Source: Thiosulfativibrio zosterae
Lineage (GTDB): Bacteria; Pseudomonadota; Gammaproteobacteria; Thiomicrospirales; Thiomicrospiraceae
Assembly: GCF_011398155.1 (NCBI RefSeq)
Contig: NZ_AP021888.1
Coordinates: forward strand, 1,037,501-1,101,500
Direction of reading: 5' to 3'
Length of the DNA: 64,000 nt
Below the pieces are notes generated by a model, which searched no databases, was not told the DNA's origin, and saw only the letters and a program-made list of their open reading frames with translations. Positions 8,507 through 26,105 of this stretch are shown piece by piece (within the stretch, counting starts at the first letter, position 1; each line of letters begins with the position of its first letter). Both the position numbers and the translations under genes were made by a program.

Positions 8507-8572
8507 TATTGCTTCATTTTAATTTACAATAGTGTTAAACCAACATTCCAAAGGTGTTAATTAGGAGGTTTT

Positions 8573-9394
8573 ATGCAGTTTTTTGAACTCAGCGTGACGG
8601 GCAAAATTGATAAAGTCCGCCTGAATGGTCGTTCAAGCCAAGAAAAATTTCTTGATTGGATTTTAGAGGATACCCCCTTTGAGCCGGCACCGTTTAATGG
8701 CGGCTTTGATGAGGCTCAGCGTCGTTTAAAAAATCTTAACTGGCAAGCCTATGGCAAAACACGCAATCACATGGATGGTGCAGTGAGTCATTTGTCGCCT
8801 TATATTGAGCATGGCTTAATTGAACCTCATGCCATTTTGGGCTTTATTGATACCAATGATGACCGCATTCATGCCTATCATTTTTTGCAACAACTCAGTT
8901 GGCGCGACTTTTTCCAAAAGAAATATCAAGAAGACCCTAAGTTGATTTGGCAAGATATGGAGCCCTACAAAACGGGTTTCAGAGCCAGTGAATACAGCGA
9001 TAAAATGCCACAAGACATCTTGTTGGGTAAAACCAATGTTGCAGTTATTAACCAGTTTATTCGTACCTTGCAAACCACAGGATATTTGCACAACCACGCA
9101 CGCTTATACCTGGCTTCTTATGTGGTGCATTGGCGTCGCGTTAAATGGCAAACTGGCGCCAAGTGGATGTTGAGTTATTTGATTGATGGTAATTTAGCGT
9201 CTAATAATTATTCTTGGCAGTGGGTTGCCAGCACCGGCAGTAGTAAACCCTATATTTTCAATTTGGATAATGTTAAAAAGTTTGCCGGTGAAGGCTTGAA
9301 CTTATCTGGCGCGGATAACTATCCGTTAGTGGGCAGTTATGACGAATTGAAAAAACGCTTGTTTCCGCACTTACAAGAAAGGATCGCGGTATGA
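8573..9394 (+). CDS. Photolyase/cryptochrome FAD-binding half (stand-alone C-terminal domain)
   Basis: 273 residues that correspond only to the helical FAD-binding domain of photolyases. The normal N-terminal alpha/beta domain is absent. It enters the family at PFNGGFDEAQRRL, continues through HLSPYIEHGLIEPHAIL and LSWRDFF, and has the FAD/DNA core GYLHNHARLYLASYVVHW, then LIDGNLASNNYSWQWVASTG and PYIFN. A strong AGGAGG (8563-8568) precedes the ATG. The next gene overlaps by 4 bp and looks like the missing N-terminal half. The pair may act together in DNA repair or light sensing. Whether it is catalytic is unknown; the WQW and LASNN core is conserved. Confidence 0.85.
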   Translation: MQFFELSVTGKIDKVRLNGRSSQEKFLDWILEDTPFEPAPFNGGFDEAQRRLKNLNWQAYGKTRNHMDGAVSHLSPYIEHGLIEPHAILGFIDTNDDRIHAYHFLQQLSWRDFFQKKYQEDPKLIWQDMEPYKTGFRASEYSDKMPQDILLGKTNVAVINQFIRTLQTTGYLHNHARLYLASYVVHWRRVKWQTGAKWMLSYLIDGNLASNNYSWQWVASTGSSKPYIFNLDNVKKFAGEGLNLSGADNYPLVGSYDELKKRLFPHLQERIAV

Positions 9395-9879
9395 AAACAT
9401 CGGCTAAACCGCTCGAAATTACCAAGGGAGAAATCAAAACCCTCGTTTGGCTGCAAGCCAATCAACTGAATCCGCATCATGATATTTTTAGCAAAGTTGA
9501 TGATGCGGATGGGGTTTTGTTTATTTGGGATGAAACCTTGTTTGAACAAGGCTTTTTTTCAAGACAGCGTTTGTATTTTATTTGGCAATGTCTGCAAGAT
9601 TTTAAAGAGCAAGAGTTGCTGGTGATTAAGGGTGAAACCCATGAAGTGTTGATGACACTTTATAAACAAAACCCAGATTTAAAAATCGTGACGCCAGAAA
9701 ATCCCAGCTTTAATTACGACCGCTGGAACTTTGTGCATAAACTCAAACAAAACCAGTTGGTTATTTATGATGGCAAAATGCCGTTTGGGTTTTTTAAGTT
9801 TTGGAAAGAAGCCGAACAACAATTGTTTGGTCAAACAAAAATCACCGGATTTGCACACAAATCGGTGGTTATGGAGTAG
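9391..9879 (+). CDS. Photolyase N-terminal alpha/beta-domain homologue (stand-alone)
   Basis: 162 residues overlapping the previous gene by 4 bp (ATGA), so translation is likely coupled. The pattern follows the Rossmann-like antenna domain of photolyases: LVWLQANQL at the first strand, VLFIWDETLFEQGFFSRQRL (VFIwDp...sxxRlxFl), IWQCLQDF, LLVIKGETHEVL and KIVTPENPSFNYDRWN. The usual arginines of the first strand motif (FRRDLR) are missing. The C-terminal third (YDGKMPFGFFKFWKEAE) resembles the FTPFxKxW region. Alternatively it is an unrelated HUP-fold protein, but its position beside a half photolyase argues against that. Confidence 0.65.
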   Translation: MKTSAKPLEITKGEIKTLVWLQANQLNPHHDIFSKVDDADGVLFIWDETLFEQGFFSRQRLYFIWQCLQDFKEQELLVIKGETHEVLMTLYKQNPDLKIVTPENPSFNYDRWNFVHKLKQNQLVIYDGKMPFGFFKFWKEAEQQLFGQTKITGFAHKSVVME

Positions 9880-15671: not shown

Positions 15672-17120
15672 TTAGCAAATTGGGGTTTTAAGCGATTGCA
15701 CCCTCGCCAAATGATCTTGGCGAGATTCAGCGAGATTAACAATCGGTTTTGGATAGGTTTTACCCAAAATAATGCCTTTCATTTGGCATTCTTGGGTGTG
15801 TTCCCAAGGTGCATGTATGGCTTTATTGGATAAGTTCTTCAACTCTGGCACCCAACGGCGAATATAAAGTCCCTCAGCATCAAATTTGACACTTTGCGTC
15901 ACCGGATTAAACAATCGATAATAGGGCGCTGCATCCACGCCACAGCCAGCGACCCATTGCCAGCCCATGACATTATTGGCAGGGTCGGCATCAAACAAAG
16001 TAAAGTCAAACCAGTTTTTTCCCAACAGCCAATGTTGATGCAGGTTTTTGGTTAAGAGCGATGCGACCAGCATTCGCAATCGATTGTGCATGGTGCCGGT
16101 TGCCCAAAGTTCGCGCATGCCGGCATCGATAATCGGAATACCCGTTTGACTGAGTTGCCAGGCCTGGGTGTTTTCATCGGCATCTGCCCAATCCATAGCG
16201 TTGTATTTGGCCTGAAATGGCTGGGTTTCAGCATGCGGAAACCAGCAAAGCAAGTGGCGGGCAAACTCTTTCCAAACCAGTTGGCGCATCCAAGGTTGCA
16301 CGGCTTCGGCTTTTAAACTGCCATTGGCAATACGCGCTTGGCATTCTGTAAATAATCCGCTGACCGAGATTTGGCCAAATTGCAAATAGGGCGATAAACG
16401 ACTGCTGGCATCGATTGCCGGGAAATCACGATCGGTGTCATAGTTTTGTACCGAGTTGGCTAAAAAAGAATCGGCTTGTTGCCAAGCAGCGGCTTCGCTG
16501 ATGTCCCAGTGCGCAAGTAGTTTTTGAGCCCAAGGTTTTTGAAGTAAGGCTTGTAAACTTTGGGGCAAATGTTTGGCAGACTCAGGCACAGGGATTTGTG
16601 CCGTAGCTTTTAAATCAGGAATGGCGGCATCGAGTGTGTGACATTGGTCTTGGCGTTGCATGAGGGCTTTGTAAAAAGGGGTAAACACCAAATAGGGTTT
16701 GCCTTGTTGATTACTAAAGCGGCTTGGCTCAATTAAAAACTCGGAATAGAGCGGTGTGAGTTTGACTTGATGTGTTTGGCAAATTTGCAGCGCTAAGTTT
16801 TGCTGGGTGACAAAGGGTTCACCCGGTTGAAAGCTGTAAATCACTTCAGTAATGTTATGGGTTTTTAGCAGTTGAGTAAACTGCTCTGCAAAGTCACCTT
16901 CGTGTATCCAAATAGCACCGCCCAGATTTTGAATATCCGTTTGCAGGGCTTGCAAGCTTTTTGCCAGCCACAAGCTGTTGGCAGATTCTGTGCCGCCAAT
17001 AGTGAGTTTTGGGTCGTGAAAATAGCTAAAAATAACCAGATCTGGTTGTTTTAGCGCCATTTGCAGCCCTAAGTGATGTTGTAAACGCAGTTCTCTTTGG
17101 CACCAAACTAGGGTTGTCAT
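15672..17120 (-). CDS. phrB: Deoxyribodipyrimidine photolyase
   Basis: 482 residues with both photolyase domains. The N-terminal alpha/beta domain begins LVWCQRELRLQHH and includes GKPYLVFTPFYKAL. The FAD domain has SRLSPYLQFGQIS, WKEFARHLL, GTMHNRLRMLVASLLTKNL and DADPANNVMGWQWVAGCG. It repairs cyclobutane pyrimidine dimers with visible light. It overlaps the upstream CHI-like gene by 4 bp. It gives the cell a complete photolyase in addition to the split one at 8573-9879. The degenerate palindrome AACCAGATCTGGTT (17034-17047) and a CCAGGCCTGG (16158) lie inside it. Confidence 0.93.
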   Translation of the reverse strand: MTTLVWCQRELRLQHHLGLQMALKQPDLVIFSYFHDPKLTIGGTESANSLWLAKSLQALQTDIQNLGGAIWIHEGDFAEQFTQLLKTHNITEVIYSFQPGEPFVTQQNLALQICQTHQVKLTPLYSEFLIEPSRFSNQQGKPYLVFTPFYKALMQRQDQCHTLDAAIPDLKATAQIPVPESAKHLPQSLQALLQKPWAQKLLAHWDISEAAAWQQADSFLANSVQNYDTDRDFPAIDASSRLSPYLQFGQISVSGLFTECQARIANGSLKAEAVQPWMRQLVWKEFARHLLCWFPHAETQPFQAKYNAMDWADADENTQAWQLSQTGIPIIDAGMRELWATGTMHNRLRMLVASLLTKNLHQHWLLGKNWFDFTLFDADPANNVMGWQWVAGCGVDAAPYYRLFNPVTQSVKFDAEGLYIRRWVPELKNLSNKAIHAPWEHTQECQMKGIILGKTYPKPIVNLAESRQDHLARVQSLKTPIC

Positions 17121-24740: not shown

Positions 24741-26105
24741 CTATTTTGCGGTGCTTTTTTGCGCATCCGCATCTGGTACAAACTTCAACACATTGCCATT
24801 AATGCAATAGCGTTTGTAAGTCGGTGCTGGGCCATCATCAAATACATGACCTAAATGAATGCCAGAACTGGCGCTACGCACCTCGGTTCGAATCATGCCA
24901 TGAGATTTATCCACCACTTCAACGATTGAACCCTCAACAGGATTAAAGAAACTTGGCCAGCCAGTGCCGCTGTTAAACTTGGTGTCGCTTCTAAAGAGGG
25001 CCGCACCGGTAATCGGGTCTACAAAGGTGCCGGGACGCTTTTCATCCAAATGCGAACCAGTGAAGGCATATTCTGTGCCCTGTTCAAATGCTATATGGCG
25101 TTGCTCAGGGGTTAAGAGTCTAAAGCCCAGCCATTTCCAAAAGCGTTCCTTGTCGCCGTTATAACCGGTAAAGCGCGACACTTCTTTGCCGTCTTCAAAC
25201 AACACGATGGTTGGTGTGGCAAATAAAGCTTTCTCTAAAGTCCAGCCTTTAGGCGGATTAGGGTTGAGCGTGGCGATAATCGGTACTTCAGATTGCCAAG
25301 TGTTCATCACTTCTTCTTTAAACTTGGCACAGAAAGGACAATCCTCTGCTTCAAATACAATCAGTTGACGCGTTTTGTTCAGATCAGTGGCATTCAGCAA
25401 TGGGTGGGTTTTTGCTGTGCTGTGTTCTGAAGGATAAGCCACGCCCGTGCCACCTAATCCGCAATAGCCATTCGGGTTCTTTTTAAGATAATCTTGATGA
25501 TACTCTTCGGCAGCGATGTAGTTGCGAAGTGGGGCAATTTCTGTGGTAATTTTGCCCAGGCCTGCCTTGCTCAGGGCTGTTTGATAGGTGTCACGCGTTT
25601 GGTTTGCTAAAGTAAGTTGCGCGTCACTTTTGGTATAAATCACACTGCGATAATTGGTACCGACATCATTGCCTTGGCGGTCGCCTTGGGTTGGATTGTG
25701 GTTTTCCCAAAACTTAATCATTAGGGTTTCTAAGTTAACTAAAGCTGGATTAAAGGTGACTTTAATCACTTCGGCATGATTACGCTTGTTGGATTTGCCC
25801 ATTTGAATCAATTTTTCTAAGCCTAATACTTCATAGTAGCCGGCTTGGGTATCATCACCACCGGCATAACCACTTTCAACATCTAAAACGCCAGGCACTT
25901 CAGAAAGACGCTTTTCAGCGCCCCAAAAGCAACCCATACCAAAAACTATACTGTCGGTTTTAACATCGGGCATATCAGACATTTCAGGGTGTTTTTCGGT
26001 CATATTAGACTCCTTTGCGCAACTGGGTAAACTGAGAAAAAGCGGAAGGCACAAGGCTAGCCAGCGCCAAGAACTGCCCAAAAATTTGGGTCGTTGAATG
26101 TTCAT
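24741..26105 (-). CDS. msrAB: MsrA-thioredoxin-like-MsrB fusion lipoprotein (methionine sulfoxide reductase)
   Basis: 454 residues. The N-terminal signal peptide has a lipobox ending SLPSC (Cys about residue 29), so the protein is probably a periplasmic lipoprotein. MsrA domain (about 52-215) has GCFWGAEKRL. A middle thioredoxin/glutaredoxin-like domain (about 240-340) has EDCPFCAKF. MsrB (about 340-450) has SGTGWPSF and catalytic Cys in RYCINGN; the zinc CxxC pairs of many MsrBs are missing. It reduces S- and R-methionine sulfoxide in exported proteins. Domain order differs from Neisseria PilB (Trx-MsrA-MsrB). The ATG has TAGGAGG upstream. Confidence 0.9.
   Translation of the reverse strand: MNIQRPKFLGSSWRWLALCLPLFLSLPSCAKESNMTEKHPEMSDMPDVKTDSIVFGMGCFWGAEKRLSEVPGVLDVESGYAGGDDTQAGYYEVLGLEKLIQMGKSNKRNHAEVIKVTFNPALVNLETLMIKFWENHNPTQGDRQGNDVGTNYRSVIYTKSDAQLTLANQTRDTYQTALSKAGLGKITTEIAPLRNYIAAEEYHQDYLKKNPNGYCGLGGTGVAYPSEHSTAKTHPLLNATDLNKTRQLIVFEAEDCPFCAKFKEEVMNTWQSEVPIIATLNPNPPKGWTLEKALFATPTIVLFEDGKEVSRFTGYNGDKERFWKWLGFRLLTPEQRHIAFEQGTEYAFTGSHLDEKRPGTFVDPITGAALFRSDTKFNSGTGWPSFFNPVEGSIVEVVDKSHGMIRTEVRSASSGIHLGHVFDDGPAPTYKRYCINGNVLKFVPDADAQKSTAK

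Follow-up and report, generated by a model that had tools for sequence, protein, structure and literature searches.

A photolyase split between two overlapping genes with reversed domain order in Thiosulfativibrio zosterae

The window, by which we mean the whole stretch of 64,000 nucleotides of Thiosulfativibrio zosterae DNA that was analysed, contains two adjacent forward-strand genes that together cover both domains of a photolyase, and a complete photolyase gene outside this pair. The relevant features are:

8563 to 8568, forward strand: AGGAGG, a putative ribosome-binding-like sequence upstream of the FAD half, read from the sequence
8573 to 9394, forward strand: FAD-binding (catalytic) half, P0001, 273 aa, from the list of open reading frames and matched by PF03441
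9391 to 9394, forward strand: ATGA, a 4-bp stop/start overlap read from the sequence and compatible with translational coupling
9391 to 9879, forward strand: second gene, alpha/beta partner, P0002, 162 aa, assigned as a diverged photolyase N-terminal domain by fold and profile
15672 to 17120, reverse strand: complete class I-type photolyase, P0003, 482 aa, outside the pair, matched by PF00875 and PF03441

These coordinates, including the four bases common to both genes, agree with the original prediction, which had described a photolyase split in two with the gene order reversed. That description is confirmed: the 273-aa protein matches PF03441, the 162-aa protein corresponds to the alpha/beta domain in fold and profile comparisons, and the two domains are encoded by separate ORFs in different frames with the FAD half first, which is not the order of the class I single chain. 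The reading frame of P0002 is open for 16 codons upstream of its ATG, giving an open frame of 178 aa, and a DUF3429 gene and a CIA30 gene lie downstream of the pair. The separate complete photolyase had also been foreseen and was recovered on the opposite strand, 6 kb from the pair, where P0003 matched both PF03441 (E 3.6e-78) and PF00875 (E 7.1e-26) in Pfam; its match to NF007955 (E 2e-91) was yet under the cut-off of that model.

For the first gene product, PF03441 (FAD_binding_7) was the only domain found by the Pfam search (E 3.5e-24, 85.8 bits, cut-off 27), so that P0001 is a short FAD protein without an N-terminal alpha/beta domain in its chain, and the SNNYSWQW core that had been pointed out is present. 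The P0001 structure model had a mean pLDDT of 77.6 and was matched by Foldseek to photolyase 1qnf (E 1e-7, prob 1.00), while the best matches of the P0001 profile in the PDB were class I (1tez, 1owl, 1dnp) and class III (4u63) photolyases. Alignment with E. coli PhrB showed that the equivalents of W277, N341, W359, D372, N378, W382 and W384 are retained, at the conserved active-site positions W110, N174, W192, D205, N211, W215 and W217 of P0001. Three PhrB residues are substituted, namely E274 (Q107), R342 (H175) and M345 (L178), and W306 aligns with Y141; because of these replacements, efficiency or substrate may differ from those of PhrB. The role of E. coli E274 and the meaning of the aligned active-site residues are presumed here from general background.

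The original prediction took the 162-aa protein for the missing alpha/beta domain and proposed a profile search of both proteins, which succeeded for PF03441 on the 273-aa protein and fell short for PF00875 (DNA_photolyase) on the 162-aa protein (E 0.013, 15.9 bits, below the curated cut-off of 26.6). In NCBIfam, P0002 had no match. Since the PF00875 score lies below the cut-off, we base the assignment of the partner on its fold and on profile comparison. The AlphaFold model of P0002 (mean pLDDT 86.1) matched the N-terminal domain of photolyases in the structure comparison with VIA, both for the E. coli enzyme 1dnp (Z 10.2, rmsd 6.0 over 141 residues) and for photolyase 8ijy (Z 9.8, rmsd 2.4 over 105 residues). 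Photolyases and cryptochromes made up 49 of the 50 matches listed. Foldseek returned nothing for P0002 at E<=0.001; a photolyase ranked first at 2.5e-3, followed closely by adenylyltransferase, PIN and universal-stress folds. A sequence search of the PDB with P0002 alone gave designed proteins as the best match (E 0.37). With the profile of alignment A2, which combines P0002 with 27 partner ORFs taken from the 78 on named contigs described below, 27 of the 30 distinct PDB sequences found at E<=1 were photolyases or cryptochromes, the best at 2.6e-4, and 13 of the 28 A2 members themselves matched PF00875 at E<=0.1 (best 2e-4). When the partner profile was aligned by hhalign to a canonical alpha/beta profile built from 13 N-terminal domains, the match was colinear over 136 columns (prob 93, E 3e-7, the latter being the value for one comparison) and took in the closing FTPFYK/FFKFWK segment.

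Identity between P0002 and most A2 members, which come from different phyla, is 16-28%. Within this diverged family D47, F63 and F134 are invariant and W20, R60 and W138 nearly so, and in the PDB profile alignments D47 and R60 fall on the matching D and R of cryptochromes. The loss of the first-strand arginine was described correctly, as the motif reads WFRQDLR in E. coli, WLHEDAL in the partner-family consensus and WLQANQL in P0002; the H column of the consensus holds H in 26 of the 28 rows and Q in P0002. In close pairs of partner genes with measurable dS, dN was below dS (for example 0.071/0.287 and 0.124/1.039); several other close pairs had saturated dS. Taken with its homologues, P0002 can be firmly assigned, on its modelled fold and on profile alignment, as a diverged photolyase alpha/beta domain, and a failure of the 162-aa protein to match this domain in structure, named beforehand as evidence against the idea, is not what we found.

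The original prediction had named as further counter-evidence FAD halves that occur regularly without the partner, and this is not the case in the genomes surveyed. In the window's order, represented by 62 genomes of one family, the FAD half was found in 21 genomes and the partner profile matched in the same 21, directly downstream of the FAD half in each. The second survey covered 244 genomes from the phylum to which the Candidatus Obscuribacterales genome G062 belongs; we take this to be the phylum holding cyanobacteria and refer to it as the cyanobacterial phylum. Here, 51 genomes passed E<=1e-40 for the FAD half, and the 48 with E below 1e-75 were counted as split-type, a gap chosen after the list had been seen; the three remaining matches (about 1e-41) were single chains. 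The partner (E<=1e-10) was present in 47 of these 48 genomes, and among all 244 there was none with the partner and without the FAD half. One apparent lone FAD half (G095) turned out to be a single chain of 441 aa, of which 185 aa form a C-terminal extension. The two genes were adjacent in 29 of the 47 pairs, within 2 kb in 3, far apart on the same contig in 8 and on separate contigs in 7, the last number including cases in which a draft assembly could hide closeness (for example G224, with 211 nt of room). Co-inheritance is not explained by linkage alone, as the genes are well separated or on different contigs in 15 of the 47 pairs.

A comparable picture emerged from the named genomes, for which the best 80 of 546 relatives were used. 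The partner was present on 78 of the 80 contigs and started between -300 and +200 nt from the FAD stop in 75 of them; in the other three pairs, all from Chloroflexota, it lay 1.0-1.5 kb further downstream. Of the two contigs that seemed to carry a lone FAD half, one stops 107 nt past the FAD half (L102), and for the other the partner was found on another contig of the same genome (L099). The junction offset was -3 in 37 of the 78 pairs and, apart from the three distant ones, ranged from -234 to +30 nt in the others under first-start calling; an NTGA overlap in the partner's frame was seen in 42. Split-type genomes of Alphaproteobacteria had the partner in five of five cases, one of the five being the seed. 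The surveys overlap, as several of the loci L053-L132 seem to repeat order genomes (for example L053/L018 and L055/L023, with the same lengths and scores), and their counts are not independent by descent. Both halves are almost always co-inherited, even when the genes are far apart, and in this lineage a FAD half looks like one part of an obligate two-part enzyme. As a separate observation, two Chloroflexota loci (L113 and L123, read with flanks as L216 and L211) have a 512-aa photolyase-like ORF 5' of the FAD half and the partner 1.2-1.5 kb 3' of it.

Longer matches were found in 21 genomes. In 20 of them, a single chain begins with the FAD half and carries a C-terminal extension; the remaining one (G645, L229) was rejected as an ordinary photolyase with the alpha/beta domain first that had been caught by the FAD profile. 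In none of the 20 FAD-first single-chain genomes was a free partner found at E<=0.001. At one locus (L236), a weak match to the partner profile (3e-4) was seen in an overlapping 338-aa ORF beside the FAD-first chain. On Deinococcus plasmids, three of four cases fuse both parts into one protein of 456-480 aa with the FAD half first, and the fourth has two overlapping genes; in the only annotated split Deinococcus case, the partner is labelled 'hypothetical protein'. In addition to the cyanobacterial phylum, the split reversed photolyase thus occurs on contigs with the labels Proteobacteria, Chloroflexota, Acidobacteria and Deinococcus. On two Persicobacter plasmids (L051, L052), a FAD-first protein extended C-terminally by 146 aa directly precedes a complete photolyase-like ORF.

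The C-terminal domain of the FAD-first single-chain relatives matched the partner profile in hhalign (prob 91, E 1e-6), whereas a direct comparison of this NewPHL-type C-terminal profile, for which 19 of 20 rows (over 90 aa) were kept, with the canonical alpha/beta profile gave no match (prob 0.5, E 0.12). Besides alignment A3 of P0001 with 14 FAD halves, we used a tree of 61 FAD domains, which left out DASH, class II, class III and plant cryptochrome sequences as well as the very long row L213, and for which the program warned of long branches meeting at the forks that join outer groups. In this tree, 53 rows of the lineage, including P0001 and the relatives that are NewPHL-type by architecture, fell on one side of a branch with support 98/95, and five class I and three further photolyase rows on the other. 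The architecture-based label newPHL_like was not a single clade (2 changes), and FeSBCP_other is our own provisional label.

The novelty of a split reversed photolyase, as it had been proposed, did not hold, as such systems have been in print since 2022. According to the excerpted text of Haney et al. 2022 (PMC9426592), all marine Synechococcus studied carry a reversed two-gene phr4/phr5, and two Cyanobium strains carry a fused phr6. There, (6-4) activity was predicted for phr4/phr5 from Fe-S cysteines, the ligands in Phr4 being C169, C254, C257 and C263, and E. coli given the phr4/phr5 genes of Synechococcus RS9916 was protected against UV-C but very little against UV-B. In the literature searched, a reversed two-gene photolyase appeared only in Haney et al. 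2022; inverted-topology NewPHLs/SPLs are mentioned in the accessible part of PMC13274461. Like Phr4/Phr5, the window pair has the FAD half first and the photolyase domain second in two adjacent ORFs, Phr6 being one ORF; in contrast to Phr4/Phr5, its genes overlap by 4 bp. P0001 has no cysteine at all and so lacks all four Fe-S ligands of Phr4, for which reason we regard it as a relative and did not file it as Phr4. Relatives in the cyanobacterial phylum, in Chloroflexota and in Deinococcus do have the four cysteines. Three loci from small genomes of the cyanobacterial phylum (L202-L204), with partner matches of 1.7e-28 to 1.1e-34, fit the published description and presumably are phr4/phr5 themselves, and the cysteine spacing in L203 (85/3/6) is that of the Phr4 ligands. 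The branch of the window lacks the Fe-S cysteines, and neither the activity prediction nor the assay of Haney et al. is therefore simply transferable to it. The split reversed architecture itself is not new and the window pair is a phr4/phr5 relative without the Fe-S ligands. What we add to the known picture, besides this branch without the Fe-S cysteines, is a wider range of phyla, co-inheritance of the halves even at a distance and a partner under the Pfam threshold.

Other published forms resemble the pair in part. Like the SPL of Xu et al. 2021, as described in PMC9178010, PMC9649867 and PMC9498864, P0001 is a FAD half whose chain has no N-terminal alpha/beta domain; unlike it, the window encodes that domain in a separate gene, the likeness being one of description. 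As in NewPHL/Phr7 (Emmerich et al. 2020, as described in PMC9426592 and PMC13274461), the FAD domain comes first; NewPHL is one chain and the window has two ORFs, the comparison being by architecture and description. NewPHLs are reported to repair CPD in single-stranded DNA. The pair shares with the class I CPD photolyase of E. coli (PhrB, 1dnp) the same two domains and most active-site residues, and differs from it in domain order, number of chains and the four replaced positions given above.

We consider it likely that the products of the pair form a single two-polypeptide photolyase, a heterodimer carrying out light-dependent DNA repair. The first gene would provide the helical FAD domain, which would hold the flavin, bind damaged DNA and repair it with light, and the second gene the alpha/beta domain, acting in trans to the FAD chain. 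In ordinary photolyases, both domains share one chain, of which the alpha/beta domain takes up approximately residues 1-160. After coupled translation, the two halves would probably come together physically as a heterodimer with the shape of a normal photolyase, in which the partner may serve as an antenna or a structural element. The lesion repaired would most likely be the cyclobutane pyrimidine dimer; as with NewPHLs, the substrate might be single-stranded DNA. This reading is supported by the homology of both parts, the colinear partner match, co-inheritance, the Deinococcus fusions in the same reversed order and the conservation of most residues on the flavin side and the lesion side. Neither the antenna-free enzyme nor the light sensor that the original prediction offered as new roles is needed to account for the data, because most repair-type residues are kept.

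That the FAD half acts alone as a short photolyase-like enzyme, with the 162-aa protein as a separate antenna-loading or regulatory helper, seems unlikely to us. SPLs are in print as CPD repair enzymes without an alpha/beta domain (PMC9649867, in the part cited), and the genes that lie far apart or on a different contig in 15 of 47 genomes would suit such independence, but near-strict co-inheritance, the Deinococcus fusions and the missing free partner in all 20 FAD-first single-chain genomes speak against it. We think it distinctly improbable that the pair is a cryptochrome-like light sensor in a genome whose full photolyase already performs repair. In favour of a sensor, genes for a PAS/LOV-like protein and a MerR regulator accompany that of a full photolyase within 8 kb, and P0001 has Q at the E274 equivalent; however, P0003 likewise has Q at this position, P0001 retains the N378 and N341 equivalents and the active-site tryptophans, the Pfam search of the pair revealed no output domain, and phr4/phr5 protects E. 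coli from UV-C (PMC9426592, as excerpted). A programmed frameshift that reads both ORFs as a single reversed-order chain was suggested by Haney et al. (PMC9426592) for phr4/phr5 and would fit the fused forms in Deinococcus and Cyanobium and the 16 open codons before the partner's ATG. It is very improbable here, as the junction differs among relatives and far-apart pairs exist, in which two chains must suffice; an obligatory frameshift fusion was set aside on these grounds. Finally, the weak Pfam score and the low identity to most A2 members could hint at a decaying remnant or chance ORF, an identity of the partner to which co-inheritance, invariant residues, dN below dS and the confident fold leave hardly any probability.

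The preferred reading of a two-polypeptide photolyase bears on the proposal that SPLs, described as missing the alpha/beta domain, are the ancestors of photolyases (PMC9649867, repeated in PMC9498864, both in excerpt); an SPL gene of S. elongatus is named in the accessible part of PMC9178010. According to this published hypothesis, 'short' photolyases without an alpha/beta domain stand at the root of the photolyase/cryptochrome family. If the published SPLs belong to the lineage described here, their alpha/beta domain would not be missing but would lie on another gene, and if they are always partnered, they would be rearranged two-part enzymes and the argument for a one-domain ancestor would weaken. 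We see an even chance that the whole SPL class is an obligate two-subunit photolyase, which would receive its antenna-type domain from a second, sometimes unlinked gene missed by annotation, and that FAD-first proteins form one old lineage, fused in places (Deinococcus, NewPHL) and devoid of the Fe-S cluster in proteobacteria like that of the window. A natural system with the antenna-type domain in trans would allow the role of this domain to be separated from that of the FAD half.

The surroundings of P0003 drew our attention as well. Between 14217 and 17120, genes for a PAS protein, whose CRFLQG motif looks LOV-like by eye, a MerR regulator and the class I photolyase adjoin one another and are followed by chalcone-isomerase-like and DUF3833 genes; the group looks like a light-response island. 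Elsewhere in the window, a long ORF at 24741-26105 resembles, by eye, a fusion of the MsrA/MsrB type that has an additional segment in the middle.
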